Source: a virus
IMG/VR virus record: IMGVR_UViG_3300030389_003975
Span: 1 to 20,994 of that record
Direction: 5' to 3' (one strand)
Length of the DNA stretch: 20,994 bases
Shown: piece after piece, positions 1,755 through 19,985 of the stretch
How the letters are laid out: the number at the start of each line of letters is the position of its first letter
How positions within the stretch are numbered: the first letter of the stretch is position 1
Program-made: the position numbers and the translations under genes
The notes under the pieces: generated by a model
Database searches by the model: none
What the model was told of the DNA's origin: nothing
What the model saw: the letters and a program-made list of their open reading frames with translations, nothing else

Positions 1755-1951
1755 TGGATATATTGGATGACTTTCCAGTAGAAGAGAAACCTATGGAACC
1801 TGAACTGGTTTCTGAGTTTATGGCAATTATAAAAGATTTAAAAAGAAACCGTATCACAACAAAAGTATATTACAAAAGATTAGCTAAGTTCTGGGAGAAG
1901 CATGGGTTTCCAGAATTTGCAGAAGAAACTTTATTGTACGTTACGGATTAA
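1754..1951 (+). CDS. Small acidic helical protein of unknown function
   Basis: A 65-residue protein with an acidic N-terminus (MDILDDFPVEEKP) and a probable helical body (residues 18-48), ending EFAEETLLYVTD. It starts in a TAATG overlap with the preceding gene, with AAGGAG nine bases upstream. It is the last plus-strand gene: its final 11 bases overlap the 3' end of the large minus-strand gene, so the two transcripts run into each other. No family is recognised. The good ribosome binding site and coupling support it as real. Confidence 0.65.
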   Translation: MDILDDFPVEEKPMEPELVSEFMAIIKDLKRNRITTKVYYKRLAKFWEKHGFPEFAEETLLYVTD

Positions 1952-4900
1952 GTGATTTTTCATATTTACTTCTAACTCTATCAAACACCTCTTTAGGGCT
2001 AACATCTTCTACAAATATCATATTATTTGGATTAGAGTTGTTCCAAGCATCCATTACTCTGTAAGCTTCTTCCTCTCTTTCATCTATGAATAAATCTAAT
2101 ATTCTACTTCTGGTAATTCCTTTTCTATATCTAGTATATGTTTCTTTTTGACCCTCAGTTTCAAACCTTCTTGCATATCTTCTTGGAACAGTTCCTAATA
2201 TTGGAGCAAAATATTTTATAGATCTTTTATATGAACCGATACCATACGTATGTAAATCATTGTTAACTCTTTGTATGGCATCTATTGCTTTCAAAGCATC
2301 TTGTATTATTGCAGGTTTTGCTAAAAATTCTATTGCTCTAAATTTATTTTCATTGGCTATAACATCAGAAACAAAACCAAAAGCACCAACAGAAGCAACA
2401 TGGTCAAAGAAATCACCTCTTGTATACTTAGATATGTCTGTTTCTACATCAATGCCCATTACATCTATATTTGTATTTGGTGGTAAACCCGGTAAAAATA
2501 ATCTACTTTCATCGTATATATCATCTTCTCCAGCTATTAAATTATTCAATGCTTTTTTAGACCACACCACTAATTGAGAACCAAACAACCCACCTGCACC
2601 TAATCTTAGCATGGGAAAAAGATTTCCTCTAGCAAGTTCAAAACCCAACTCTTCTCGAATCCAATTAAATTGCTTGTAACCAAATCTTTTAAACAATATA
2701 AAAGGTCTAAATCGAGGGTCGTTGAAAAAAAGAGGATCTCTTAAAACGTTTTTTTGTAGCTGTGCATCTCTTGCAAACCTATATACAGCCTCTGCTTCCT
2801 TGGAATTTGCTATTGTTCTTTTACCGTCAGGAGTTCGTATAGATTCTTCTCTGGTTAACTCTTTTTTTGAAATATTTTCTGATAAACCTAGTCTTTTTAA
2901 ATTTGCTTTTGCCCAGTTTCTTCTTAATTCTATGGGACTTGTTCTTGCTTTAATCAAAGACCTTATATATTCCCTACCAGCGGCGGCCGCTACATATTGA
3001 TTTACCTTATTTATACCCTGAAACAAGCTAACTCTAGTCACCATATCAGCGATCCTTGACATTCTCCTGTCTGTAGGTTCTAAACCATACATCATTTGAG
3101 ATATGCTTAAGTTAGACAAACCTGATCTACCAATTTGTTTTCTGTAATTTTTGTCGGTTGCTAAATTGTAGCCTCCTTTAAAAGTGTTCCAATATCCTGC
3201 TTTTACAGCAGTGGAAACTAAAGTTTGTGTAAGGTTTGGAATTGTAGCATAACCCAATCCTATTTTAGTAGCAACTTCAAAATCTACCAAAGTGGATAAA
3301 AAGTTTTTTGCCCTTGGGTCATAGTTTTTAGACGGGTTTATTTCTATTTTATTAGTGAACGTATCAAATAATTGATCTATGAATTTTTCTTCCTGTCTTA
3401 ATTTTTTTTCTTTCGTATAGTCTCTTTGCCTATGGGCATCATTTGCTAATCTTCTTATTGCAGAAAGCCTTTGTTCGATTACTTCACCTTTTGGGCCAAA
3501 GTTTTCTACATAAGCGATTCTTCTTGATAGATCTGTTGCATATCTAGTCAATACAATCCTAGCATCTCTTTCGTACATATAGTCAGGCAACTCATACTTT
3601 CTTGATTTTTCTATGTTTCCCATAACGCTAAATCTCTGATGGAGAACATCATCTCTTAAAGTAGAAAAAGCCTCTGCTAAAGCTTTATCTCTACTAAGAG
3701 TTTTATTTTGGTCTTTTGCATTTTTTTGAAATACATTTGCTATGTGCTCAAGAGCACTCTTGGTTTTTGGGTCTATACTGGTAGATTCCATAATTGCATT
3801 TATTTTTTCTACCATCAAAGGCTTATTGGATAAACCTCTACCTTCAAAGCTTACGTCTTGAGATATAATTTTGAATATATCACTTCCCAATATATCTAAA
3901 TACTCTGATTTAACTTTATTGGGAAAATAATTTTTACGAAATTCTACTACTGGAACACCTGCTTGTTTAGAAAGATAGTATTGCTTATTTAAAAAAGACC
4001 TTACTTTTTTAACATCCACATCGTTTTGCCTAGCAGGGTCTTGTGCTCTTCTCCCCAAATCTTCAAAATATTCTTTAGCTTGTTTTTCAGTTCTTAATTT
4101 TTTAAAACCTGAAGGAGTCTCTACTTCAACCAAACCAAATATTTTTTTAAAAAACCCACCATTATACAAACCAGCACTCTGCAATTCTTGCAAACTTGTA
4201 CCTGTTAAAACTACACCCCTAGAATCTGCCTTGTTTATGTCTTTTATGGTACTAACACCAAACTCAGTAACTGCTCTGTTTTTACTTTGTTTTAAAAACT
4301 CAGGAATTATTTTAGTGTATACAGCAGACTGGGGTATTAAATATTCATCATAGCCTTCTCTTTTAAATTCTTTAAATATCTTATCTGCAAGACTCTCTTT
4401 TCTTAAAGTGTCTAAAAATTTAACTTTTTCAATAGGTGTCATTTGAGAGTATCCAGTTTTACCTTTTGATGTATCAACCTTTCTACCTGTAACAGACTCA
4501 ATTCTATTAACAATCTCTTGCTGACTTAGACCCAACCCCTTTTTTCCCAATCTACTGAAAACCTCTTTTCTCCTAGAATTTTCTATCTCCTGAGATGTTT
4601 TCATATTAACCCTGTTTTTAGACCTAGCAAAACCTCTATTACTAAACTCAGTGGCAGAAAATTCAACAGAATTACCTGATTTAATATTTTTTGCTGTTAC
4701 ATAATCAACAACTTTTCCAGAGGTTGTTTCCTTAGACTCAAACTTAACATCATCTATTTTTGTTCCTTTTCTATCTGTCCATACAGCTTCTTTTGCCTCT
4801 GTGCTTTTTTTCGCTTCTGCGAAAGCTTTTGCAGTATCTTTAGTAGTTAATAACGGATTGTCTTTTCCTGCTAATTTCATAGCTGTTTTTGGCACTTTCC

Positions 4901-5921
4901 TAACTAAAGTTAAACCACCAATAACTCCAGCCGCATGGATGTAGTCGTCAACTTTAGGCATTTCACCTTCCATTATAGGGGACAATGTTCCAAATTCAAT
5001 AGTTTCTAAGGCTTTAGTTGCAGTTGCATAAGCTATTTTTTCTCCAACTGTTTTAGGAGTTCCTAAATTTCTAATTAAATAGTTATTCATAGCTTTTCCA
5101 GACCCAGCAGTTACACCACCAAGAACTGCACCTTTTGAAGCATCTGCTAAAGTTTGTATAAAGCTAATATCTCCAGTTTTTATTTCCTGACCTAAGCTAG
5201 ACTGCAAACCGCTATAAAATCCTAAACCAGTTGCACCTTTAACACCTTCTTCTAATATCCTATTAGAAACTATTGGCTTTATTTTTTGTATTAATTTATT
5301 TGCTGTTTTTGTTGTTACACCTCCTTGATTAGATAAAACTTGAGATGCTTTAACTGCATTTTTTTCAACTAACTCCTCAACGGCTTCTTTTGCAACTTTT
5401 CGATTAATACCAGAAACTGCACCTTTTTGAAGTGCAGAAACTGCCGCTCTTTTTGTTGCTCCTCTAATTGCAAAACCACCAATTCCTCCGCCAGCCGCCA
5501 TTGTGCCAATATCTGTTAATGTAAAAAAAGAAGTAATAGTAGATAAAACGTCATCAACAACACCCATATTTTCTTCTTCATAACGAGCAATATCAAATTT
5601 TTTACCACCAGTTGCCATTTGATAAGCCAAACCCTCAATGCTGTTGTTATAACCCACTTTAGCCCAAGTAGGCAACCATTCGCCGGGAACAAATCCATAC
5701 AACTTTTCATCTTTAGATGATTTTTTTATCTCATCATCAACTACTTGTTTTGCAATATTTTCATAATAGCTAAAATCATTTTGTATAGGTTGTGATTTTT
5801 GATGAGATTGATCACTAAGATATTGCAACATATCTTCAGAGCCTTGATATTTATTTTGATTATTAGATGCTCTATCTATAAGGTTTGAATAATAAGAAAA
5901 GCTATCGTTTTGGTTAGACAT
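1941..5921 (-). CDS. Large internal virion (ejection) protein, T7 gp16-like by size and position
   Basis: A 1326-residue protein, the last gene of the late operon. Visible parts: a polar Asn/Gln/Ser-rich start (1-60), a Gly/Ala-rich hydrophobic stretch near 125-170 that could insert in a membrane, a long charged helical middle (about 380-860), a segment near 880-920 with IGLGYATIPNLTQTL, and an aromatic stretch near 1060-1120 (FRPFILFKRFGYKQFNW). The segment with ATKIGLG...PNL and a tryptophan-containing WNTFKGG is of a type I know from large polyvalent or internal proteins of marine phages. The length is close to T7 gp16 (about 1318 residues), and the place after nozzle and two mid-sized proteins matches the T7 order. 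No transglycosylase motif was seen. The likely role is delivery through the cell envelope with the DNA; that is inference. Confidence 0.7.
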   Translation of the reverse strand: MSNQNDSFSYYSNLIDRASNNQNKYQGSEDMLQYLSDQSHQKSQPIQNDFSYYENIAKQVVDDEIKKSSKDEKLYGFVPGEWLPTWAKVGYNNSIEGLAYQMATGGKKFDIARYEEENMGVVDDVLSTITSFFTLTDIGTMAAGGGIGGFAIRGATKRAAVSALQKGAVSGINRKVAKEAVEELVEKNAVKASQVLSNQGGVTTKTANKLIQKIKPIVSNRILEEGVKGATGLGFYSGLQSSLGQEIKTGDISFIQTLADASKGAVLGGVTAGSGKAMNNYLIRNLGTPKTVGEKIAYATATKALETIEFGTLSPIMEGEMPKVDDYIHAAGVIGGLTLVRKVPKTAMKLAGKDNPLLTTKDTAKAFAEAKKSTEAKEAVWTDRKGTKIDDVKFESKETTSGKVVDYVTAKNIKSGNSVEFSATEFSNRGFARSKNRVNMKTSQEIENSRRKEVFSRLGKKGLGLSQQEIVNRIESVTGRKVDTSKGKTGYSQMTPIEKVKFLDTLRKESLADKIFKEFKREGYDEYLIPQSAVYTKIIPEFLKQSKNRAVTEFGVSTIKDINKADSRGVVLTGTSLQELQSAGLYNGGFFKKIFGLVEVETPSGFKKLRTEKQAKEYFEDLGRRAQDPARQNDVDVKKVRSFLNKQYYLSKQAGVPVVEFRKNYFPNKVKSEYLDILGSDIFKIISQDVSFEGRGLSNKPLMVEKINAIMESTSIDPKTKSALEHIANVFQKNAKDQNKTLSRDKALAEAFSTLRDDVLHQRFSVMGNIEKSRKYELPDYMYERDARIVLTRYATDLSRRIAYVENFGPKGEVIEQRLSAIRRLANDAHRQRDYTKEKKLRQEEKFIDQLFDTFTNKIEINPSKNYDPRAKNFLSTLVDFEVATKIGLGYATIPNLTQTLVSTAVKAGYWNTFKGGYNLATDKNYRKQIGRSGLSNLSISQMMYGLEPTDRRMSRIADMVTRVSLFQGINKVNQYVAAAAGREYIRSLIKARTSPIELRRNWAKANLKRLGLSENISKKELTREESIRTPDGKRTIANSKEAEAVYRFARDAQLQKNVLRDPLFFNDPRFRPFILFKRFGYKQFNWIREELGFELARGNLFPMLRLGAGGLFGSQLVVWSKKALNNLIAGEDDIYDESRLFLPGLPPNTNIDVMGIDVETDISKYTRGDFFDHVASVGAFGFVSDVIANENKFRAIEFLAKPAIIQDALKAIDAIQRVNNDLHTYGIGSYKRSIKYFAPILGTVPRRYARRFETEGQKETYTRYRKGITRSRILDLFIDEREEEAYRVMDAWNNSNPNNMIFVEDVSPKEVFDRVRSKYEKSLNP

Positions 5922-8606: not shown

Positions 8607-9296
8607 TCATATTTCCACCTCTACTCGCCAAACCGATGTAATATAATAATCTATAGTACTAGCCGGGTCTCCATCAAATTGTATTTTAATACCTACTTTC
8701 ATGCCAGTTTCTACTTTTGGTTGATTATTAAAATCAGATTCATTTATTGTTAAAAAAGTATCGTTAGATATGTTATCAGTTGTGTACTGAAAAGTAGCTA
8801 CGGTGTCCACATTAGCATCTCCATCATCTTGCCTTACAACAGTGAAAGTAAGATTTGCACTAGTAGGGTCAGATGTAAGCGTTTCTGGCCTAAAAAGTAT
8901 TCTATGGCAAGTCATATCAAAAGGGACAAGCAACGAGTTTCTTGCATCGTCCATACCCGTGCTATCGGTAGGCCCAACCCAAGGAAGAAACCTCTCAGCC
9001 GTTGAAAGGTTTTCTGAAAAATTATGAGAAAACATACGATAGTCTATAAATTTATGTTTGTACTCAAGATCGTTAGTTGTTAGCTTCTTCTCTACAATCT
9101 GATTACCATCGCTAGTCATAAAGGAATGAAACAGCTTTCCAAACTGTTTTCTGTATAATGCTAATTGGCTATTTGATTTTTTCTTTATAGCTATTTGGCC
9201 ATCAACCATTCCCTGTATAGAAGGAGTTCCTTGGAACTCAACAGATGCCTGCTTTGTATTAATTAACTTTCTAGTGTCCCTTTCTGTTAACGGCAC
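8607..9296 (-). CDS. Beta-rich tail or virion protein of unknown role
   Basis: A 229-residue protein that starts at a GTG inside a TAGTG overlap with the nozzle stop. The first 60 residues hold a phage-fibre-like phrase (MVDGQIAIKKKSNSQLALYRK), like the short N-terminal strands of fibre or collar proteins. The rest alternates beta strands and loops, ending in a jelly-roll-like stretch (residues 140-229). No signal peptide, membrane segment or catalytic motif is visible. Tight coupling to the nozzle gene suggests a tail component, perhaps an adhesin or nozzle-associated protein. I cannot assign a family. Confidence 0.6.
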   Translation of the reverse strand: MPLTERDTRKLINTKQASVEFQGTPSIQGMVDGQIAIKKKSNSQLALYRKQFGKLFHSFMTSDGNQIVEKKLTTNDLEYKHKFIDYRMFSHNFSENLSTAERFLPWVGPTDSTGMDDARNSLLVPFDMTCHRILFRPETLTSDPTSANLTFTVVRQDDGDANVDTVATFQYTTDNISNDTFLTINESDFNNQPKVETGMKVGIKIQFDGDPASTIDYYITSVWRVEVEI

Positions 9297-12082
9297 TACG
9301 TAACCTCTTTGCTTCCTATGACTCTATACTGCACTGTCATATCGTTTATTTCAAACAGCCCAGTGCTAGGAGCATCAAATTTAATTTGAAGGCTCTGACA
9401 TTCTATGGGTGAAGCAGTGCTTAAAGTAACAACATCCCATTTATCACTTGTTCCTATAAAGTTACCTGTAAAAGTCCCACCGCCATCCCCAGAAAAATTC
9501 TGTGTTCCGTTTATAGCGTATTTAAAAGGAGTTGTTTCGGAAGCATTAGACTTATAAGTTACAATAACTTTATATATTTTCTTTACCAATCCGGGCACAC
9601 CAAAATCAATATCTCTAGTAACAAACTCTTGGTCTGTTTGTGTGGTAGGAACTGGTAAAAACTTTTTAAAATCAACGTCAGTAGAATCGTCTTGATACCC
9701 TACAGTAAGGTTGTTGTTAAAGTCTGTTATAAAATTTGTATAGGTTTCGCTATCATCAAATATTCCAGTGCTAAACGTCCAACCATTACTATCAAAGTCA
9801 TAAACAAAAGCCTGATTAGAGTTAGTGGATGAGTCATTAGGGCTCCTAAACATTATCAAAGAATTACTTATTGGGTCATACCCAAGCATAATATCTTTTA
9901 CAAAAGCACTTCCTCTATACCAGTCATTCCAAGTAATATTATTTGTCGTGTATGAGGCATTACTTACAGCTATTTTTTTATCAATTAAATTTCTTATTCT
10001 AGAACCATCGTATAAATAGCACCCATCATCTGAAACCCAAGCTATCCCATTGTTAGTTTTAGCAACGCTAAAAGGAAACTCAACACCATAATACTTTACA
10101 GTTTCTTCTAAATACCAATTAAAAACACTAGGGCTAGCAATATTAATTATATGTATTAAATTATGCTTAAAAGCAAGAAGCCTATCAGCATAAGATTCTA
10201 ATGCAACGTACTCACCATAATCTCCGGTAGAAACATCTATAAAATTATGAGGTAAAAAAGTGTCAAACTTATTTATTTCACTATACATAATTCTATCACC
10301 AAAAGTTTCTACCTCTCCTGAGCTTCCTTTTAGGGATACATTAGCTACAAAGGTTCTCCGATTTGCAATTACGCCAGCCTTATATCCTTCATTAAAGCCA
10401 CCTATGCCTAAAAATTTTACATCTGGACTAAATCCGTTAATTGTTTGATATGTATCTAAATTAGGACTAAGTGCATTGCCAGTTGATTCGCCTAAAACAT
10501 AATACCCTTTCCCCTCTTGATAAGACCAAGGTTGATGATCTCCATCTAAAGTAGTCCTAACACCTTTTACAATATCTATATCTACCAACATTATTAAATC
10601 TTCATCTGAGTTTAGCAACCTTGTATAAATTCTACCACCTGTAATCCTTCCAGAATAAGCCAAATCTGCAAATATAGAAATTCTTAGTCCGTCTCCGCTA
10701 TTTACAGACAAAGAAAAAACATCAATAGAAGATTCTCCATCGCCTGTTCTTACAGGTAAAGACTCTTGATTTCCATCATAAATAAAAGTTTGATGAAACT
10801 CGTATGTGCCTTCCCCCCACCCTCCGGCATTAGAAACAGTGGTTACCCCAATATTAAAACCTGTTCCCCTTTCTATAATAGGAGTTTCATTGTCATCAAA
10901 GTTAAAAGGAGCTGTTCCGTCTGGCAAAACACCTCCATAACTTCTTTCGTAAATAGCAAATCCAGACGAACTGGTATAACCTCTTTTGCAAAATAAAAAT
11001 TCTTTTGGATATTCCCCTAAATCACCAACTCCACCTGCAGTATCTTTAATAGATATAACCTCACCAACAACAGCCCTACCTGTTTTGTCGTTATTACTAG
11101 AGTCTTCAAATTTTAAAAGGGTGCTTGATGTGTTTAAATTAACTCCCATTTGTAAAACAGCATCTTCTGCATACTTATGAATCGCAACTCCTCTAAAGTC
11201 GTCTGTAGCAGGGTTTTTAAAGTAATTAGCACCCGCACCACCTGTATCTGCATCATGTGCAGAATGACCGTAGGCATACGTTAAATTAGTTGCTAACTTA
11301 GGAGAACTTAAAGTATTAATATGCTCTTGCCATTCAGCAAATACTAATCCGGTGTTAATATTAAATTGATTTCTTTGAATGTACCCGTACCATTTTACTA
11401 AAGATTTATTTGTTGTGTTTATATTCCTAACCCGCAAAGCTCCATCTACGTAAAGATACATATACTTAGCATTCTCACCAGATATCGTAGGGTTAATAGC
11501 CGCTGTTTCCCATCCGCTGTTTTCCGTAGTGTAATTTGTAGTTGCATTGTTAGACCAAACGTCTACCCCTCCAGCATCAGCGGTATCTCCCAAGGCAATT
11601 AACTTGTCCCCAGTGGGTCTGACAACATTAATAGTAGGATTTCCACCACTAGAATCTGTTAATATAGGTCTTCCTTTTACAATGTAATATATATCTTGAT
11701 CTGCAAAAGTAAGGGTAACTGTTCCAGTTGTCCCTTCCCTATTCAATGTAAACTGAGTAGAGCTATCAACCGAAGAAACAATAGAACCTGATGCAACTCC
11801 AGTGCCAGCAACAGATAGACCTGCTACGATATTAGCATTAGCAGAATGAGTTACGGTTGCTCCACTAATAGAGCAAGATGCCTGAGTAAAACTTGAACCT
11901 AAAGCCTCTCCAGAATTTAAAGAGTCAACGACTTGCTCAACGGTAAAAATACCATCATTTCCACCTGATCCGGTTATTTTTATAACATCGCCTATTTGAA
12001 TTAAGCTACTTGTAAAAATAGTGCTATTGTTAGAACTAGCTCCTCCAACTAAAACAATATGAGATGAAGTGGGTAACGGCAT
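9296..12082 (-). CDS. Tail nozzle-like beta-propeller protein, main part
   Basis: A 928-residue beta-rich protein. Residues about 84-115 carry an Ig-like phage decoration motif (AGLSVAGTGVASGSIV followed by STQFTLN). Residues about 600-760 read like the propeller blades of podovirus nozzles (T7 gp12, P22 gp10 type): a phrase about initial contact (RLLAFKHNLIHIIN), then FSVAKTNNGIAWVSDDG, then LYDGSRIRNL. This protein class seals the tail below the portal and contacts internal proteins. The usual N-terminal piece of a nozzle is encoded separately just upstream (12085-12510), so the nozzle looks split over two coupled genes. It starts at an ATG two bases after the preceding stop (ATGTAATTATG). 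Confidence 0.7.
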   Translation of the reverse strand: MPLPTSSHIVLVGGASSNNSTIFTSSLIQIGDVIKITGSGGNDGIFTVEQVVDSLNSGEALGSSFTQASCSISGATVTHSANANIVAGLSVAGTGVASGSIVSSVDSSTQFTLNREGTTGTVTLTFADQDIYYIVKGRPILTDSSGGNPTINVVRPTGDKLIALGDTADAGGVDVWSNNATTNYTTENSGWETAAINPTISGENAKYMYLYVDGALRVRNINTTNKSLVKWYGYIQRNQFNINTGLVFAEWQEHINTLSSPKLATNLTYAYGHSAHDADTGGAGANYFKNPATDDFRGVAIHKYAEDAVLQMGVNLNTSSTLLKFEDSSNNDKTGRAVVGEVISIKDTAGGVGDLGEYPKEFLFCKRGYTSSSGFAIYERSYGGVLPDGTAPFNFDDNETPIIERGTGFNIGVTTVSNAGGWGEGTYEFHQTFIYDGNQESLPVRTGDGESSIDVFSLSVNSGDGLRISIFADLAYSGRITGGRIYTRLLNSDEDLIMLVDIDIVKGVRTTLDGDHQPWSYQEGKGYYVLGESTGNALSPNLDTYQTINGFSPDVKFLGIGGFNEGYKAGVIANRRTFVANVSLKGSSGEVETFGDRIMYSEINKFDTFLPHNFIDVSTGDYGEYVALESYADRLLAFKHNLIHIINIASPSVFNWYLEETVKYYGVEFPFSVAKTNNGIAWVSDDGCYLYDGSRIRNLIDKKIAVSNASYTTNNITWNDWYRGSAFVKDIMLGYDPISNSLIMFRSPNDSSTNSNQAFVYDFDSNGWTFSTGIFDDSETYTNFITDFNNNLTVGYQDDSTDVDFKKFLPVPTTQTDQEFVTRDIDFGVPGLVKKIYKVIVTYKSNASETTPFKYAINGTQNFSGDGGGTFTGNFIGTSDKWDVVTLSTASPIECQSLQIKFDAPSTGLFEINDMTVQYRVIGSKEVT

Positions 12083-13203: not shown

Positions 13204-13326
13204 TTACTCCCTAATGCATTTTAAAAATTGTTTAATTATTCTTTTGGTAATTTGCTTATTACCTTGATTTCTTGCAAGCATTACAAGAGCCCTTTCTCTA
13301 ATTACTGACTCTTGCAACTCACTCAT
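13204..13326 (-). CDS. Small basic protein of unknown function
   Basis: A 40-residue frame from the ATG at 13326 (MSELQESVIRERALVM) to the TAA at 13204-13206. It overlaps the preceding stop in an ATGA junction, and its stop lies two bases before the next ATG. It fills a 120-base space in an operon without gaps. The product is helical and becomes Lys/Arg-rich at the end (KQITKRIIKQFLKC). It has no clear membrane segment. No family is recognised. Confidence 0.55.
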   Translation of the reverse strand: MSELQESVIRERALVMLARNQGNKQITKRIIKQFLKCIRE

Positions 13327-13643
13327 TTCTTTTTACGCTTACCCCAGCTTAATGGATTGATGTTAAATTCTTTTTCATAGAAAGCTACTTTCTCTGCCAA
13401 CTCTTCTCTTTCAGCCCTTTCTTCCATGATGTGTTTACTAAGCAAATCCCCAATCTGTTCATTTGCAATAATAACATTATCTTCAAGCTTTGCAATCCTA
13501 GTTTCAATTTGCCAATAACCATATACCAACATTGCGATAAGAACTCCAATCTGACCCAACCACTTAAGGTTAATGCTAACAATGGCATTATCATCAAGAA
13601 TAGTAGTCCTATAACTTCTAGCGGTATCTGGCTTCGCACTCAC
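13323..13643 (-). CDS. Single-span membrane protein with coiled coil, inner spanin- or holin-like
   Basis: A 106-residue protein if read from the GTG at 13643, which forms a GTGA overlap with the stop of the preceding lipoprotein gene and has GAGG four bases upstream. A TTG at 13664 would add seven residues but is less likely. Residues 1-27 are polar and basic, 28-44 (WLGQIGVLIAMLVYGYW) span the membrane, and 45-90 form a heptad-like coiled coil (IETRIAKLEDNVII, then EERAEREELAEKV). The C-terminus is basic (WGKRKKK). With the lipoprotein gene directly upstream, it could be the inner-membrane half of a spanin pair, although the cytoplasmic N-tail is long for that. Confidence 0.62.
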   Translation of the reverse strand: MSAKPDTARSYRTTILDDNAIVSINLKWLGQIGVLIAMLVYGYWQIETRIAKLEDNVIIANEQIGDLLSKHIMEERAEREELAEKVAFYEKEFNINPLSWGKRKKK

Positions 13644-13879
13644 TTTACCTCGACTTTTTCCCAATCATTATGTAGATAGCACCAATTAGTATAATCAGAC
13701 AAACGACCATAGAACAAATGTGTAATAGAGTCAGCATCAACTATCTCCATAAACACTGTATTCGTAAACCTTTCCTCTTCTCCTATTGGTATGTTTGCTA
13801 CTACCCACCCTTGATTTGTGCAACTGTGAATTAGAAATATACTTAACAGGAATGTTATAACTCGTATGTACAACTTCAA
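13640..13879 (-). CDS. Putative lipoprotein, outer spanin-like candidate
   Basis: A 79-residue frame with a good lipoprotein signal: basic start (MKLYIR), a hydrophobic core (VITFLLSIFLI) and the lipobox-like IHSC with Cys at residue 20. The mature part (about 60 residues) is polar. The start is a TTG preceded closely by GGAG; no ATG is available in this frame. It starts inside the 59-residue gene in another frame and runs 97 bases past its end, giving an Rz/Rz1-like nested arrangement. Its stop overlaps the start of the membrane coiled-coil gene. A lipoprotein next to a one-span coiled-coil protein suggests an o-spanin, but Pro-richness is absent and the order is reversed compared with lambda Rz-Rz1. 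Confidence 0.62.
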   Translation of the reverse strand: MKLYIRVITFLLSIFLIHSCTNQGWVVANIPIGEEERFTNTVFMEIVDADSITHLFYGRLSDYTNWCYLHNDWEKVEVK

Positions 13880-13916
13880 AATCTCCGTTCTTTAATGTTT
13901 TAATTGTTTTGTTCAT
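13737..13916 (-). CDS. Small basic protein overlapping the lipoprotein gene
   Basis: A 59-residue frame from the ATG at 13916 (MNKTIKTLKNGDF), which shares an ATGA junction with the stop of the preceding membrane protein, with GGTGGATGG upstream. This coupling is the pattern used throughout the operon and is the main support for it. An in-frame start at 13931 exists but does not fit the junction. The second half of the frame (KSRVGSSKHTNRRRGKVYEY) is low in hydrophobic residues and overlaps the lipoprotein frame over 143 bases. So only the first 12 codons are free of overlap, and the tail may be constrained by the other frame. The function is unknown. It may serve mainly to start the lipoprotein. 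Confidence 0.45.
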   Translation of the reverse strand: MNKTIKTLKNGDFEVVHTSYNIPVKYISNSQLHKSRVGSSKHTNRRRGKVYEYSVYGDS

Positions 13917-14206
13917 AGCACCATCCACCAAGCTATACCAGTTTCTACTACAATATCAGCCATAGTGTTGTATGCCCATGCTTTTTTGGTTCCGTATGTT
14001 TCCTCATCACCCTCAATAAACCATTCAAATATTTCCCACAGAACACCTATAATAAATACACCCATGACACACCAAAAATCTGACCAACTCAACCATTGGA
14101 ATATCTTACATAAAAAAGCACCAGCCGCTAAATGATACGCAGTCCAGCCATCTAACTGTCCAGTTTTATATTGCCATGATACTAATGTTGCTAAAGGATT
14201 CTTCAT
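13913..14206 (-). CDS. Membrane protein with YjdF/DUF2238-like pattern
   Basis: A 97-residue protein with three hydrophobic stretches: about 23-37, 43-64 and 82-97. Between and within them lie H25-x3-G29, W57-E58-x2-E61-W62 (GVLWEIFEWFIEG), E68 and an NTMAD motif at 80-84. The combination of a His in the first span, a WE..EW pair in the second and an NT-x-D near the third resembles the YjdF (DUF2238) family of bacterial inner-membrane proteins, although this protein is about half as long and that comparison is from memory. The role is unknown. A holin-like or envelope-modifying role is possible from its place next to the putative lipoprotein. Confidence 0.6.
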   Translation of the reverse strand: MKNPLATLVSWQYKTGQLDGWTAYHLAAGAFLCKIFQWLSWSDFWCVMGVFIIGVLWEIFEWFIEGDEETYGTKKAWAYNTMADIVVETGIAWWMVL

Positions 14207-14493
14207 TTGCTCTGTATCATATTATTTATTAATTCATGTTTACCAATTAACATTCTTCCCGTTCCACCGCCATGCTCATCATCGCATTTATCAACATAAG
14301 CTTCTTCTATTGTATCCCAACTATTGCTTCTCTTTATGACTTCTCCATTGTAAACTAAAAAGTAATTATACCTAGAAGGATAAGTAAGGGTCTCTGTTGT
14401 ACCGTCTGGATATTTCTTTGTACGAGTCGCACCGGGAGTTGTATTTCTATACAGCTTTAGGTCGTGACCCTTAGAACTTTTCCTTATTAGCAT
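14203..14493 (-). CDS. Small phage protein of unknown function
   Basis: A 96-residue protein with a basic start (MLIRKSSKGHDLKLYR), a beta-like centre with RYNYFLVYNGEVIKRSNSWDT, and an acidic Cys/His patch (DKCDDEHGG). It has no membrane segment. The ATG overlaps the preceding stop (TAATG), and its stop overlaps the next start (ATGA). The single Cys-Asp-Asp-Glu-His patch could bind a metal, but one such patch is weak evidence. No family is recognised. Confidence 0.65.
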   Translation of the reverse strand: MLIRKSSKGHDLKLYRNTTPGATRTKKYPDGTTETLTYPSRYNYFLVYNGEVIKRSNSWDTIEEAYVDKCDDEHGGGTGRMLIGKHELINNMIQSK

Positions 14494-14777
14494 TAGTCGT
14501 TTTCATCTCCCGGATCATGTGGTGAGTGGTCATTATTAAGCATTTGCTTTAGCTCTTTAACACCTTTTTGATGTTTGTCTACAAATGCTTTCTCACATTC
14601 AACTAATTGCTGTCTCATAAAAGCGTTTGTAGATAGCTTATTTTGTATATCACTTACATGATTTTGATACAAAGCAACTTCACCTGCTTTTTCTTTTTGT
14701 AAATCAGTCATATCCTCAATGATGTATTCTTTACCATCTAGATTCAAGACTGGCTTTTCTTTTTCTTTTTTAGCCAT
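14493..14777 (-). CDS. Coiled-coil small protein, DUF6447-like
   Basis: A 94-residue protein beginning with a Lys/Glu-rich start, then the pattern LNLDGKEYIIEDMTD (11-25) followed by a long helix (26-80) and an acidic, Pro/His-containing tail. A short strand pair '(L/I)-x-(I/L)DGKEY-(D/I)IE' before a coiled coil is the layout of small phage proteins annotated as DUF6447, usually near tail-fibre genes. The ATG has AAGGAG upstream and lies 21 bases after the fibre stop. Its place just behind the fibre gene is compatible with a fibre chaperone or accessory protein, which is inference. Confidence 0.65.
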   Translation of the reverse strand: MAKKEKEKPVLNLDGKEYIIEDMTDLQKEKAGEVALYQNHVSDIQNKLSTNAFMRQQLVECEKAFVDKHQKGVKELKQMLNNDHSPHDPGDEND

Positions 14778-14798
14778 TTTTGACTCCTTGCTTGTTAA

Positions 14799-17700
14799 TT
14801 ATTTCTTTTCTAATTCTTCTACTTTTGCAGATAACTCTTGCACTGCTTTAATTAATGGTGCAATAAGTTGAGAATATCTTAATCCATATATATCAGATTC
14901 TTCGTCATATACTATTCCAGCAAAATCATCATTTGTTAATCCAATATCTTTTAAAGCTTTCTCTACATCTTGTGCAAGTAAACCTTGATGTTTTCTTTTA
15001 AAAGTTTTGGTTTTAGTAATAGTTTTAGGTTCTTCTCCATCTTGCCTTTCGATATACTCATAATCGTAGTCTTTCCATTTGTATTCTTTCGGTTTTAATT
15101 TATTTACAAAATCAAGACCAAGACTTGTATCTTTTACATTGTCTTTTCGCCTTTCATCAGATGTATCTATTGTTCCATTTGTTGCAAAAATATCATCAAA
15201 CCTAAAAGAACTGTTTCCAATGTCCGCTGAATCATTTACACCCGGAACAATATTTCCAGAATTTTCTAATCTTAACTTTAAGTTAGTGCCAACATAAAAC
15301 TGAAATTGTTCATTACCATGATCGTATAAAACTTGACCAGATTCAGCACCAGTATCTTTAAATACAATAGATTGAGTAGCACTTGTACTGCAATCTGGTG
15401 CTATATAAAGTTTTGTTACAGAACTATTACCAAGTGTTACAGTATTGTCACCTTGTCCTATTGCTTGAAATCCTATTACTGATTGGTTTGATCCTGTAGA
15501 TGAACTTGCATCTGCTTGAACTCCCAAGATAGTATTTTGCTGTCCTCCAGCAAGTTGATCCGCACTAAACGCACCAAAACAAGCATTATTTGAGCCTGTA
15601 ATTAATTTACCAGATTGATAACCATAAGCTGAATTGGAATCTCCTGTTTCATTTGTTAATAATGACTCATAACCAGTTGCTGTAGAATATTGTCCTTCAG
15701 TTAACGCTTTAAGAGAGTTATAACCTACAGCAACTGTACCTTCAGCATCTGTTGTTGTACTAGCTGTACCAACAAAAGCATTTGTACCAATGGCAACAAC
15801 ATTTGCAATAGCTTGACCTGATGGGACACCAGACATTGCATCACCACCAATAACTACATTTGCAGTCGCAGTTGTAGCCGCCCCTAATGCCGAATCTCCT
15901 ATAACTATATTACTTCCACCAGAGGTAATTGCATCTCCAGCTAATCTTCCTACAACAGTATTATTACTACCTGTAGTAACCGCAAATAAAGCATTAAGAC
16001 CAACTGCTGTATTATTAGCAACTGCACCTTCAGCATTGTTCATTGCATTTGTACCGATAGCAGTATTGCCACCTCCTGTAATTGCATTTCCACCACCTTC
16101 ACCCATAGCACTTCCACCAATAGCAATATTATTACTGCAATTTGTCATGCTAGTTCCAGCCCTATATCCGATTCCAATATTATCTGAAGGAGTGCTTGCA
16201 CCAATTAATGAACCTAAAGCCTCAGTACCAATAGCAATGCTTCTTTTTACATGAGTAATATTTGCAACCATAGCACTATTTCCAATCGCAATATTATCTT
16301 CACAAGTACCAGCATTAGTTCCATATAACGCTCGATAACCAATAGCAATAGAAGCAGTTGCTCCATTTGATTGAGCCAATGCTTCTTGACCAATAGCAGT
16401 AAGTTGTGATTGCGTAGTAACAGCAGAACCAGCAGAAAGTCCTATAAAAGTATTACTGCTACCTTCTGTAATTGCATCACCAGCCCCAGAGCCTACTGCG
16501 ACATTATTACTGCCTCCAAGGACTGCTTTTAGAGCTTCATAACCTACTCCAGTATTATTACTGTTATTATTATTATCTACGCCAAATCCAGCACCATAAC
16601 CTACATAGGTGTTAAAATCTCCAGTCCTATTTCCAAAACCAGTAAAAGCTCCAAAGCCAACATTTTTTTCTCCAGTTGTATTTTTATTTCCAGATGCGTG
16701 TCCAAAAAATGCGTTATCTTCACCGCCATCTACTATTGCTAAACCAGCGAATGCACCAAATAAAGTATTTCCAGTTGTACCATCTGCACCACTAGTACCA
16801 CCAGAGTCATTATTACTCATTGAAAATCTAGAATTAGCATCTATTATAAAAGACTTATCAGTACTACCATTTACTCTAATAAACATTCTATCAGTACCTT
16901 GATCGTAAGATAATACACCTTTATCAGCATCATCAGCATCACCAAATAAAATTTGTCCATGACTTGAAGTCCCACTTAAGATATTGATAGCCGCAACTCC
17001 GCTATTCTCTACCGCTAATTGTGCATCTGAATGTGCATCTACTGTACCAGCACTTGCTTTAAAAATGTGCAAATTAGTGTCTGGTGATTCTGTACCAATA
17101 CCGACCGAACCTCCAGTAATAGTCATAACTTCTGTTTGACTTGCATTTACCATTTGACTAAACCTAAATGCACCATCATAAGCTCCACCAGTTACGTCTG
17201 GAGTGTATGCTTCAATAAATGCCATAAGCCTTGATGAACCAGTTGCATCATTACTATTAAATTGTATTTGACCAATGTTATCATTATTTGCTGGACTAGA
17301 GCTACTTTTCTTAAAAGATAAAAATGGAGACCTACTACCAGCATTAGCATTTTCAATAGTTAACGTTGGGTTGAAATCCTGATCACTAAATACATGAAGA
17401 TTTGTACTAGGACTTGAAGTTCCAATACCAACATTGCCATCTGAACCTTGCACAAAAAAAGCTGGGTCTAGATTATCTGATAATACTCTAAAATCTATAT
17501 CTCTACTATCTTGATTAAATATAACTGCTGGAGTAGAACCAGATGCCATTCTCATATACTCTCGTAAAGTACCATCAGTCATTACATCAAATTCTATTTG
17601 AGCATCTTCTGTTCCATCCAATACATGACCAGCCGCTACTTTTATTCTAGCTCCTACAAAATCTTGACTATTATTGTTTCTACCATCAAAATCTATTTGA

Positions 17701-18080
17701 CCGAAAACATCTGAATCTGCTGGGCTTGGTGAATTTCTATATAATCTTAAATTTGGAGCGGCTGATGCACCATCGTCTGTTGATATAAGAGTAAGGTTGT
17801 CTGAGTTATCTGTCGTTGTAATTGACATTGTACCAGTAAGTATTTCATCAAAAGTCTGACTACCCCCACCCTGTACAGTTAAATCTCCTGTAATGGTAAC
17901 ATCACCTGAAATAGTATTGCTACCACCAAGGGATACATTAAGTCTGTTATTAGAAGTATCAAGCACAGCGTTTAACGCTTCTTGAGATGTGTGAGAATTT
18001 GCGGCTACGGAGTTGCCTGAAGAATCTAGAAGTACCTTGTTTAGCACTTCTTTTGTAGTAAATTTATTTATGTCTGACAT
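14799..18080 (-). CDS. Tail fibre with YadA-head-like repeats and S74 self-cleaving chaperone domain
   Basis: A 1093-residue protein. Residues 1-75 form an anchor-like start with short strands (NTISGDVTITGDLTVQGG). Two similar beta modules contain GNVGIGTSSPSTNLHV (about 216-230) and GSVGIGTESPDTNLHI (about 324-339). Residues 438-884 hold about 26 repeats of the form N(T/I)A(I/V)Gx(x)A(L/G/M), as in the left-handed beta roll of YadA-type adhesin heads. Residues about 974-1093 are an S74 intramolecular chaperone: TSDERRK, LKPKEYKW, HQGLLAQDV, YGLRYSQL and a C-terminal coiled coil (VQELSAKVEELEKK). The Ser974/Lys979 spacing equals the catalytic Ser-Lys pair known for endosialidase. So trimeric assembly followed by cleavage before Ser974 is expected. 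It probably binds the host receptor. Confidence 0.93.
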   Translation of the reverse strand: MSDINKFTTKEVLNKVLLDSSGNSVAANSHTSQEALNAVLDTSNNRLNVSLGGSNTISGDVTITGDLTVQGGGSQTFDEILTGTMSITTTDNSDNLTLISTDDGASAAPNLRLYRNSPSPADSDVFGQIDFDGRNNNSQDFVGARIKVAAGHVLDGTEDAQIEFDVMTDGTLREYMRMASGSTPAVIFNQDSRDIDFRVLSDNLDPAFFVQGSDGNVGIGTSSPSTNLHVFSDQDFNPTLTIENANAGSRSPFLSFKKSSSSPANNDNIGQIQFNSNDATGSSRLMAFIEAYTPDVTGGAYDGAFRFSQMVNASQTEVMTITGGSVGIGTESPDTNLHIFKASAGTVDAHSDAQLAVENSGVAAINILSGTSSHGQILFGDADDADKGVLSYDQGTDRMFIRVNGSTDKSFIIDANSRFSMSNNDSGGTSGADGTTGNTLFGAFAGLAIVDGGEDNAFFGHASGNKNTTGEKNVGFGAFTGFGNRTGDFNTYVGYGAGFGVDNNNNSNNTGVGYEALKAVLGGSNNVAVGSGAGDAITEGSSNTFIGLSAGSAVTTQSQLTAIGQEALAQSNGATASIAIGYRALYGTNAGTCEDNIAIGNSAMVANITHVKRSIAIGTEALGSLIGASTPSDNIGIGYRAGTSMTNCSNNIAIGGSAMGEGGGNAITGGGNTAIGTNAMNNAEGAVANNTAVGLNALFAVTTGSNNTVVGRLAGDAITSGGSNIVIGDSALGAATTATANVVIGGDAMSGVPSGQAIANVVAIGTNAFVGTASTTTDAEGTVAVGYNSLKALTEGQYSTATGYESLLTNETGDSNSAYGYQSGKLITGSNNACFGAFSADQLAGGQQNTILGVQADASSSTGSNQSVIGFQAIGQGDNTVTLGNSSVTKLYIAPDCSTSATQSIVFKDTGAESGQVLYDHGNEQFQFYVGTNLKLRLENSGNIVPGVNDSADIGNSSFRFDDIFATNGTIDTSDERRKDNVKDTSLGLDFVNKLKPKEYKWKDYDYEYIERQDGEEPKTITKTKTFKRKHQGLLAQDVEKALKDIGLTNDDFAGIVYDEESDIYGLRYSQLIAPLIKAVQELSAKVEELEKK
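15429..16769 (-). repeat. About 26 imperfect YadA-head-like repeats in the fibre
   Basis: The translated units (residues 438-884) include NTLFGAFAG, NAFFGHASG, NTYVGYGAG, NVAVGSGAG, NTFIGLSAG, SIAIGYRAL, NIAIGNSAM, NTAIGTNAM, NTAVGLNAL, NIVIGDSAL and NTILGVQAD. Spacing between units varies from about 14 to 28 residues because loops differ. The DNA is not highly repetitive, so the units are diverged copies and not recent tandem duplication. In YadA-type heads each such unit is one turn of a trimeric beta roll, so a rod-like receptor-binding shaft is expected. Confidence 0.9.
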
Positions 18081-18184: not shown

Positions 18185-18613
18185 TTATGTAAAACTAGCT
18201 GGAACAACTGCTCTGGTTCCTCCAGTCTTACTTCTTTTCTTTGTGCCATATTTCTTAATGGCCATATCAAATTTTCTTTCATGCCTCATCATCAAGTTCA
18301 TTGCTACCTGAGCTCTGTTACCATCTGATGTTTTTCCTGCACGATCCATGTACAAACATTTCTTTACATAATCCACAATCGCAGAATGATATAAATTATC
18401 AACATCTGGAGTATCCGTGATTGCTGTAACCTTATTAGGATTTCCATAATAATGTATAAGTAATCCGTTTGTAACTGAGTGGTCAAACGCTTGAAAAGCT
18501 TTTCTATCTGTTCTTGATTCACCTGTTGAAGAAAATGTTGTAATTAATCCTAAATGATCTCCTCTAATAAAGTATAATACTTTATCTTCTGGATGTTTTA
18601 TTTCACTAGCCAT
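18185..18613 (-). CDS. Probable virion neck or tail-completion protein
   Basis: A 142-residue protein (MASEIKHPEDKVLYFIRGDHLGLI) with an alpha/beta character in the first 70 residues and a helical second part (YHSAIVDYVKKCLYMDRAG), followed by a basic tail (IKKYGTKKRSKTGG). No signal peptide or membrane segment. It starts in a TAATG overlap with the 116-residue gene. The set of a 340-residue, a 116-residue and this protein, all coupled, resembles the head-to-tail adaptor blocks seen in marine podoviruses. I place it as virion-associated by context; the exact role is unknown. Confidence 0.55.
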   Translation of the reverse strand: MASEIKHPEDKVLYFIRGDHLGLITTFSSTGESRTDRKAFQAFDHSVTNGLLIHYYGNPNKVTAITDTPDVDNLYHSAIVDYVKKCLYMDRAGKTSDGNRAQVAMNLMMRHERKFDMAIKKYGTKKRSKTGGTRAVVPASFT

Positions 18614-18963
18614 TATGAAGGCTCCTCTATTGCAGACTCTGAAGTAATATCAAACATAAGTGGCTCACCATCCAACACCCTTGGAATCCTTATGTAGTCA
18701 CCTTCATTATCCATTATATCTACTCTATATACCTTGTTTATCCCCATTGCTTTATTAGAAGAATCTACAGCACTATCTGACAAATCATAAAATGTTTGAT
18801 TGGCTTCGATGTTAACTTTTGCAGACATTGACTTTTGAGAGTATTGACCAAGTTCATTTAAAGCATCGTTAATTAAAGATATAATATATGTTTCTGGTGC
18901 ATCAGGAAAAACCTGCCTAACTCTACTAATAATTTGTTTTACTGTTAAAGAATGTATTGCCAT
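18613..18963 (-). CDS. Head-tail adaptor-like protein
   Basis: A 116-residue protein whose first part (SLTVKQIISRVRQVFPDAPE, then YIISLINDALNELGQY) is typical of phage adaptor or gp6-like connector proteins: an alpha helix, a short 'FPD' turn, then a longer helix with 'INDALNEL'. The second half forms beta strands (VNIEANQTFYDLSDS, VYRVDIMDNEGDYIRI). Such proteins bind beneath the portal and receive the tail. Both ends overlap their neighbours by one base (TAATG). I am fairly confident of a neck-type protein and less sure of its exact counterpart. Confidence 0.6.
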   Translation of the reverse strand: MAIHSLTVKQIISRVRQVFPDAPETYIISLINDALNELGQYSQKSMSAKVNIEANQTFYDLSDSAVDSSNKAMGINKVYRVDIMDNEGDYIRIPRVLDGEPLMFDITSESAIEEPS

Positions 18964-19985
18964 TATTTCAACGCCTGTATTCCTTTGTCATAATCTGCCT
19001 GTAATTTAGCTTGTTGTTTCTCATATTTGCTATACCTACTTAAATCTACTGACAATCTAGCCTGTATCTCTTCTGCGTGTCCTCTAGCCTCAGCTAAAGC
19101 CGCATTGATTTCTTTTACTCGCATATCACCTATTGCGTTCCACTCGGCTAGATGAGTTTGTGCTCTTCTAATTTCTGCCGCAGAAATATTCAAAGCACTC
19201 GTTACAAGCTCCACATCTTCACTTGCTTGAGCTCCAAATGCATCTGTATCCGCTGAAGGTTGATTGCTATTAATAACATCTTCAGCCGCATCTAAAGCAT
19301 CTTTTACTCTGGTGATTTGAGAATCGTCTGTTTTAAAGGTAGACTCATCACCAAATACAGATTCAGAGTCAGCATTTTCAAACTTATCCACTGCGTTTTT
19401 TGCATCCGTTACAGCCGCAGTAATAGCACTCAGTGCATTATTAACATCCGTATTGCTTAGTGATAGGGCCCCTAAAGAATTTTGCAGTGCTTTTATTGCC
19501 CCATAAATAGGCACTAGATACTCAGCATCATCTGGAAACTTAGCAATGGTGCTATCACCAAATGCTACCGTAGGATAATTCAATGTATGTACGTGGGCAT
19601 TTTGAGCGTTGGTAGGTGAAGGCACAACAACTAAAATATTATTTGTAACGTAATAAGCAGGGTCTGTAGTGGTAGCCGCCATCATATCATCAGCATCTCT
19701 AATACGCCCATTTAACTCAGCAGGCACCTTTCTACAGGGCTGATTAATTGTTCCATCATCTCTAGTGACACTAAATACCTCAGATCCCAAAAGAGTAAGA
19801 CTTTGACTACTACCGTTCAAGTCGTTTGCAGTTGTAAACAAAGCTTGCTTTGATCTTGGTAGTGTATTTAAGATTTCTTTAGCACCATCTGTTAAGAACT
19901 GAGAAAGTTCTGACTGTGTTGGTGCACTGCTACCATCTATATCTAAACTTGTTAACGCCTCTACCTGTGCTTCAAATGTTGCCAT
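18963..19985 (-). CDS. Virion protein with C-terminal coiled coil, possible adaptor or tail protein
   Basis: A 340-residue protein. The first 170 residues look like an adaptor-type fold: helix with FEAQVEALTSLDID, then SELSQFLTDGAKEILNTLP, a beta section (SLTLLGSEVFSVTRDDGT), ILVVVPSPT, and PDDAEYLVPIYGAIKALQN. This last phrase is common in adaptor or neck proteins of marine phages. The remaining part is helical, Ala/Asp/Asn-rich, with a coiled coil near 265-340 (AEIRRAQTHLAEWNAIG, EIQARLSVDLSRYSKYEK). It starts at an ATG shortly after the preceding stop. It is probably part of the tail or connector. I cannot name the specific family. Confidence 0.65.
   Translation of the reverse strand: MATFEAQVEALTSLDIDGSSAPTQSELSQFLTDGAKEILNTLPRSKQALFTTANDLNGSSQSLTLLGSEVFSVTRDDGTINQPCRKVPAELNGRIRDADDMMAATTTDPAYYVTNNILVVVPSPTNAQNAHVHTLNYPTVAFGDSTIAKFPDDAEYLVPIYGAIKALQNSLGALSLSNTDVNNALSAITAAVTDAKNAVDKFENADSESVFGDESTFKTDDSQITRVKDALDAAEDVINSNQPSADTDAFGAQASEDVELVTSALNISAAEIRRAQTHLAEWNAIGDMRVKEINAALAEARGHAEEIQARLSVDLSRYSKYEKQQAKLQADYDKGIQALK

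Follow-up and report, generated by a model that had tools for sequence, protein, structure and literature searches.

Mosaic composition and predicted self-cleavage of an S74 tail fiber encoded on an environmental virus contig

The IMG/VR virus record IMGVR_UViG_3300030389_003975 comprises 20,994 nucleotides, and this whole stretch (positions 1 to 20,994) is referred to here as the window. On its minus strand, at positions 14799-18080, lies a tail-fiber gene whose product combines a distal shaft of 26 turns of about 17 residues with a C-terminal chaperone domain of the S74 family. The gene is a DNA mosaic, and its product is probably a homotrimeric, self-cleaving S74 tail fiber with exchangeable shaft and ends, assembled by recombination among marine phages. 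The anatomy of the fiber, its catalytic residues, and the mosaicism of its gene are read from the sequence.

A tail-fiber gene with a shaft of 26 turns

The minus-strand frame at 14799-18080 is open throughout and encodes 1093 amino acids plus a stop codon. A single open reading frame (ORF) at exactly these positions had been proposed in the original prediction, with the strand left unstated; plus-strand coding of the same positions can be ruled out, since that frame is rich in stops. When compared to PHROG, the protein gave its best match with phrog_4636, annotated as "tail spike protein" (E = 2.5e-53), followed by several further tail-fiber and tail-spike PHROGs. The gene and its parts, together with the contigs (L numbers) and the alignment (A4) described below, are as follows.

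14799..18080, minus strand: tail fiber gene; open frame, PHROG 4636 "tail spike protein" and other tail-fiber PHROGs
17841..18080, minus strand: conserved N-terminal module, residues 1-80; 92% DNA identity to L096, virion attachment predicted
16779..17840, minus strand: proximal shaft, residues 81-434; beta-rich repeats with recurring NVGIGT..P-like motifs, from sequence; shared DNA blocks with L005/L007 (83%), L301 (92%), L304 (96%), and L302 (83%)
15399..16778, minus strand: distal shaft, residues 435-894; 26 turns of about 17 residues, from spacing, shuffles, per-position composition, and models
15162..15398, minus strand: tip, residues 895-973, between roll and cut site; holds Arg960, expected distal end of the mature fiber
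14802..15161, minus strand: S74 intramolecular chaperone and predicted auto-protease, residues 974-1093; Pfam PF13884, profile and structure matches
15159..15161, minus strand: codon of the predicted catalytic Ser974; same in 15/15 rows of A4, window included
15144..15146, minus strand: codon of Lys979, predicted general base; same in 15/15 rows of A4, T5 Lys1269
15201..15203, minus strand: codon of Arg960, equivalent of the T5 trimer sensor Arg1250, from alignment to 4uw8

Residues 1-80 are probably the virion-attachment module, and the first 40 of them recur at 77% in L004 and 73% in L098. The 26 turns of the distal shaft are registered by glycines running from G442 to G884, with a spacing of 14-21 residues and a median of 17. 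The original prediction had counted about 26, and chance can be excluded as the source of the repeat: the autocorrelation of the turn stretch reached z = 8.4 at lag 17 and z = 4.6 at lag 34 (300 shuffles), and a loose turn motif, which unlike the autocorrelation was composed after viewing the sequence, occurred 36 times compared to a shuffle mean of 8.9 and a maximum of 19 (2000 shuffles). With the registering glycine numbered as position 8 (and therefore present in 26/26 turns by construction), glycine occupies position 1 in 14 of the 26 turns, asparagine position 4 in 18, alanine position 6 in 12, isoleucine or valine position 7 in 18, and alanine or serine position 11 in 25. The YadA head core has been described as GxNSVAIGAxSxAx in a 14-residue layer (PMC9543794). 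The window turns display the same G..N..AIG core, with about three more residues per turn. They are thus YadA-head-like in their core, as had been proposed, but not in their period, and the Pfam family YadA_head (PF05658) reached at best 12.5 bits on the fiber compared to a cut-off of 25 and was absent from the protein scan at E 10. In that Pfam scan S74 appeared alone, with no YadA anchor in the C terminus, and a crude hydrophobicity rule found no signal-like N terminus. A profile of the roll searched against PDB sequences returned two weak and seemingly unrelated matches only (galectin-1 and a periplasmic binding protein).

To place the turns in a fold, we modeled residues 425-1093 as a single chain from a 20-row alignment (mean predicted local distance difference test, pLDDT, 72.9; predicted template modeling score, pTM, 0.60; model residues 556-669 correspond to fiber residues 980-1093). 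Regular strands run through the turns of the model, and block pLDDT means in its S74 domain are 57-86. The tip is poorly modeled, which is expected for a single chain, as it is interlaced between chains in known trimers. Residues ~704-943 align to YadA (1p9h; Z 15.7, 161 residues, 3.5 Å), residues ~746-884 to EibD (2xqh; Z 12.8, 116 residues, 2.1 Å), and residues ~593-890 to BpaC (7o23; Z 14.8, 241 residues, 5.2 Å). Matches with a root-mean-square deviation (rmsd) above 9 Å, such as phi29 gp12 (Z up to 14.7) and leucine-rich repeats, were disregarded. A Foldseek search of the same model against PDB gave nothing below 0.001, with T5, YadA-like head, and S74 entries heading the list, and 73 viral models fell below 0.001, several of them annotated as intramolecular chaperone proteins.

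Several results weigh against a YadA-like left-handed roll along the whole distal shaft and favor a right-handed beta-helix as in tailspikes. Residues ~437-706 of the same model align to the P22 tailspike (1qrb; Z 12.5, 247 residues, 3.6 Å), and residues 425-675 modeled alone (6 rows, pLDDT 71.6, pTM 0.73) match AlgE6 (5lw3; Z 14.6, 227 residues, 3.2 Å), so that both models put residues ~425-706 in that fold. The first 20 matches of the shorter model are alginate epimerases or lyases, FdlA, PfbA, and tailspikes, which we take to be right-handed helices; GlmU and LpxD, which we take to be left-handed, stand lower in the list with rmsd above 10 Å. Nor is the block pLDDT of the proximal half low (mostly 68-87). 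The highest block pLDDT (78-91), however, belongs to residues ~745-874, which are YadA-like, GlmU also matches the longer model (model residues 255-466, Z 11.5), all 26 turns are registered to one motif, and both model alignments are shallow (20 and 6 rows). We therefore regard a right-handed shaft as unlikely, though it is the strongest of the competing explanations. Because the same motif runs along the whole shaft, one of its halves appears to be wrongly modeled, more likely the proximal one. The beta-roll that had been proposed for all turns agrees with the YadA match at ~704-943 and is contested by the right-handed match at ~437-706.

Mosaic composition of the fiber gene

At 80% identity or more, seven contigs tile 3067 of the 3282 bases of the fiber gene (93%), coverage rises to 94% when all compared contigs are pooled, and it is 30% for the best single one. 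In contrast, one contig is enough for any of ten other gene segments in the window; the best contig covers 87-100% of nine segments and 60% of the tenth. More search queries were used for the fiber than for its neighbors, which may raise its tile count but can only raise the value for the best single contig.

In residue coordinates, the DNA blocks comprise 1-80 (92%, L096), 86-224 (83%, L005), 86-217 (84%, L007), 217-330 (92%, L301), 326-396 (96%, L304), 326-519 (83%, L302), 410-482 (89%, L098), 423-519 (86%, L099), 534-777 (85%, L096), 803-897 (92%, L002), 873-931 (87%, L202), and 957-1093 (84%, L003). The L003 match continues through the downstream genes, with 92.6% over 13325-15212 as a whole. 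Within the roll, turns T1-T2 are 96-100% identical to L098, T2-T4 88-94% to L099, and T22-T25 96-98% to L002; ten consecutive turns, T7-T16, match L096 in order at 84-96%; among ten other roll loci, the highest values over these turns are 57-76%. The upstream flank of L096 is only 68% identical over 18333-19394, and the 92% block at the gene start therefore points to a recent exchange.

Shaft and tip also appear to have been exchanged separately, since close rolls end either in S74 or in other tips. L096 and L002, both close to parts of the roll, as well as L099 and L103, end in a non-S74 tip. Among ORFs obtained with the roll query that have a closed C terminus and at least six motifs, 7/13 end in S74 and 6/13 do not. 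These 13 come from 17 roll-query loci, of which L100, L101, L107, and L109 are cut by the contig end and L111 is without a roll; one of the six non-S74 ORFs (L105:1098-1997, median spacing 22) may not be such a fiber, and L105 and L106 appear to be near copies. The non-S74 tips that follow close rolls (C termini of L002, L096, and L099) start with DYEEGTW(S/T)P or DYEEGTFTP, and a Pfam scan of four non-S74 tips gave no family over the cut-off.

A mosaic of this kind could also arise if the window contig or its matches had been mis-joined by assemblers in repetitive shafts. The close DNA relatives are all IMG/VR contigs, mostly or wholly metagenomic, and repeats invite mis-joins, so that chimeric assembly could have created some of the junctions; to that extent the nature of the relatives counts against recombination. 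Nevertheless, blocks switch outside the roll too, near residues 80-86, 213-225, and 931-957, and the frame remains open throughout. L302 spans residues 326-519 at 83% and so bridges blocks that are better matched by L304, L098, and L099, and L098, L100, and L101, which by contig name come from three metagenomes, match the same stretches of the window at equal or almost equal identity. We consider an assembly artifact improbable. Instead, repeated recombination among related marine phages probably built the gene, by a route and in a direction that we infer, and several junctions would lie inside the repetitive shaft, whose equal turns keep frame and register.

As the turns are near-equal in length and have one core motif, they could be swapped in register. 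We tentatively propose, as a conjecture about as likely to fail as to hold or somewhat more so, that the 17-residue roll acts as a recombination ladder: phages would trade tips, shaft ends, or series of turns in frame and register, and the length of a fiber and its kind of tip (S74 or non-S74) would be reshuffled far faster than neighboring genes, with secreted bacterial S74 fibers that have the same 17-residue turn possibly tapping or feeding the same pool. The exchange of fiber modules between distant phages is known (PMC10579305). Exchange within a gene is recorded here with unusual clarity: 3.3 kb hold pieces that match seven contigs, between flanking genes that match one contig each. With such a patchwork, the idea that host range evolves by swapping at the scale of turns can be tested.

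Turn length in viral and bacterial relatives

A YadA-like roll joined to S74 is a common design, both on environmental phage contigs and among proteins of bacteria, mostly Bacteroidota. We searched for it with a turn detector built as a hand-written chain of motifs, for which shuffles gave at most four turns in 460 tries each for the viral and the prokaryote S74 sets. A roll of at least eight turns was present in 41/81 distinct viral S74 ORFs retrieved with the S74 query alone, and its median period was 17 in all 41. A larger set of 92 viral S74 ORFs (48 with at least eight turns) includes loci fetched with the roll query, and 41/81 is the fair count. The pairing of roll and S74 is thus no special case. 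In prokaryote genomes, 36/92 S74 ORFs (80 loci) have a roll, with a median of 17 in 32/36, and 26/34 of the prokaryote loci with roll and S74 carry a Bacteroidota title. Among roll ORFs closed at the 5′ end, 23/32 from prokaryotes have a signal-like N terminus by a crude hydrophobicity rule, compared to 0/33 from viruses. As a yardstick we used six loci with a YadA anchor, for which the detector was slightly laxer than for the S74 ORF sets: four have a roll, with a median of 14 in 4/4, and in the other two the detector chained fewer than four motifs. In one of the four with a roll (L195), 14/24 spacings equal 14 and 8/24 equal 21, which suggests a roll of mixed turn length.

Because the 17-residue period is common to the window fiber and the bacterial S74 proteins, and rolls with a YadA anchor have 14, the sequence comparison identifies S74 proteins with a signal-like start, not autotransporter adhesins, as the bacterial counterpart of the window fiber. 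Bacteroidota examples (L166, L164, L145, and L161) have a 17-residue roll of 13-25 turns plus S74 but, unlike the window fiber, lie on bacterial genome contigs and have a signal-like N terminus by eye. Roll-plus-S74 fibers can thus be told from autotransporter heads by one number, 17 as opposed to 14.

It is accordingly very unlikely that a phage acquired the head module of a bacterial trimeric autotransporter adhesin and fused it to an S74 chaperone. YadA-type heads (1p9h, 7o23, and 3s6l) do resemble the window fiber in the G..N..AIG core (PMC9543794) and in the YadA-like model of the distal turns. They differ in their 14-residue turns and membrane anchor, and the uniform period of the viral S74-linked rolls, the sub-threshold PF05658 score, and the lack of a detectable YadA anchor or signal-like N terminus in the window fiber argue against such an origin. 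The wider suggestion that phages and bacteria have adhesin modules in common is retained insofar as more than a third of the prokaryote S74 ORFs carry a roll, but it does not extend to autotransporter heads with their 14-residue turn, and sharing at the DNA level is demonstrable among phages.

Of three annotated marine phages inspected, two have the same architecture. Pelagibacter phage HTVC111P gp52 has 18 17-residue turns followed by SDLRDK, and Methylophilales phage Venkman gp55 has 17 such turns followed by SDARDK; both are shorter than the window fiber (811 and 730 amino acids, respectively) and about 31% identical to it over 59% of its length. The third, Roseobacter phage CRP-1 gp37, has 10 turns and no S[DE]xxxK motif, which counts against the proposed reading and shows that a roll fiber can lack the motif. 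For pelagiphage fibers taken together, the Figure 3 legend of PMC3909814 names S74 as well as a YadA-like region (3S6L_A) as domains; these fibers have a T7-type N terminus, unlike the window fiber. Structural proteins with YadA domains have also been reported in cyanophages and others (PMC9146016). The roll-plus-S74 design is therefore already known, whereas in the literature searched, mostly at the abstract level, we met no account of turn-scale shaft mosaicism or of the separation of 17 from 14.

Three further observations concern the occurrence of these fibers. An ORF on a contig titled Woesearchaeota archaeon (L154:4831-6513) has a 13-turn, 17-residue roll plus S74. One Bacteroidales metagenome-assembled genome (L171, L165) carries a tandem family of S74 proteins, with at least eight ORFs divided five to three between two contigs; 5/8 have a median spacing of 17. 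Two head-to-tail S74 fiber ORFs are found in L077 (1-4020 and 4024-6300, 14 turns each) and in L086 (599-3589 and 3601-6318, 7 and 6 turns, respectively), and such pairs may be common.

The S74 chaperone, predicted maturation, and neighboring genes

The S74 domain of the original prediction is confirmed by a Pfam match to PF13884 on residues 974-1047 (E = 7.7e-9; 36.2 bits compared to a cut-off of 22). Residues 974-979 read SDERRK, and Ser974, Asp975, and Lys979 are invariant in 15/15 rows of A4, an alignment of the window fiber and 14 relatives hand-picked from the fetched loci. The A4 profile matched the solved S74 domains 6eu4 (8.2e-11), 3gud (1.3e-6), T5 4uw8 (2.2e-6), and MyRF 7dc3 (1.8e-4), and in the structure model the S74 part (980-1093) aligns to 3gw6 (Z 8.6, 97 residues, 3.3 Å), 4uw8 (Z 8.4, 125 residues, 3.5 Å), and 7dc3 (Z 6.3, 82 residues, 2.5 Å). 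An S[DE]xxxK motif occurs within the last 260 residues in 88/88 distinct viral S74 ORFs; it was not used in the contig scans but is part of the profile that called S74.

The closest known system is the L-shaped tail fiber pb1 of T5 (4uw8), which likewise has a C-terminal S74 chaperone, a serine with a lysine at +5, an arginine sensor, and a tip before the cut. It differs in its bullet-shaped tip domain, and its alignment to the window fiber is confined to model residues 491-669, which leaves out the turns. The spacing from Ser974 to Lys979 equals that from T5 Ser1264 to Lys1269 (PMC4690869) and so is, as had been claimed, that of known auto-proteases. Window Arg960 aligns with T5 Arg1250, although the single-sequence alignment is weak (E 0.17); among the 15 A4 rows, this column has eight R, three K, one V, and three gaps. 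In T5, Arg1250 is supplied by the neighboring chain, so that cutting needs the correct trimer, and the uncut protein leaves adsorption uninhibited while the cut one inhibits it, and the authors suggest that the receptor site is masked until the protein is cut (PMC4690869). The trimeric S74 fibers (MAT) of Bdellovibrio have the SDxxxK motif too; self-cleavage has been shown in MAT (PMC10769870), and in Bd3182 a change of the serine blocks it (PMC10769870). They are bacterial secreted predator proteins, and neither YadA nor a beta-roll is mentioned in the main text of that article.

Cleavage before Ser974 is predicted to give products of 973 and 120 residues (98.6 and 14.0 kDa), in line with the sizes first estimated. 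The roll does not stand directly ahead of S74, as had been thought: about 80 residues (895-973) separate it from Ser974, or 90 if counted from the glycine of the last turn, and in 43 viral ORFs the gap from the last detected turn to the cut has a median of 126. With these tip residues between roll and cut, the mature fiber would end in a tip and not in the roll. The tip has low confidence in the single-chain model and from residue 938 on aligns with T5 pb1 ahead of Ser1264.

The trimeric state, cleavage, and receptor binding of the window fiber are predictions, and its cleavage mechanism and the unmasking of a receptor site are drawn by homology with T5 and Bdellovibrio Bd3182. Residues 1-80 would attach the fiber to the virion, and the proximal beta-rich shaft followed by 26 stacked 17-residue turns would project the ~80-residue tip outward. 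The S74 domain (the C-terminal 120 residues) would help the chains to trimerize at the tip, where Arg960 of a neighboring chain is expected to complete the active site only in the correct trimer. With Ser974 as the nucleophile and Lys979 as the base, the cut would fall between Thr973 and Ser974, the chaperone would leave, and its loss may expose the tip for receptor binding. That the domain is instead an inactive folding cap that stays attached is very unlikely: the position of T5 Asp1239 holds Asn949 here, a point against cleavage, and CRP-1 gp37 is a roll fiber without the SDxxxK motif, but Asp950 adjoins, aspartate stands at one or both of these columns in 12/14 A4 rows with letters there, and the serine and lysine are the same in all rows.

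Compared to 50,697 phage records, the whole window gave no match by megablast, the 928-, 340-, and 75-amino acid ORFs gave none in a protein search, and a 1326-amino acid protein gave six weak matches to Pseudomonas phages (about 21% over 24%). The large proteins encoded at 1941-5921 and 9296-12082 have 57 and at least 80 IMG/VR relatives, respectively, with faint or no matches among the same phage records, and at these genes the phage group may be without a cultured representative. Family matches are scarce among the neighboring genes: those upstream of the fiber gene include two SU10-type adaptor matches, below the Pfam cut-off, and a downstream gene encodes an Rz-like spanin, a neighborhood that fits a tailed phage.

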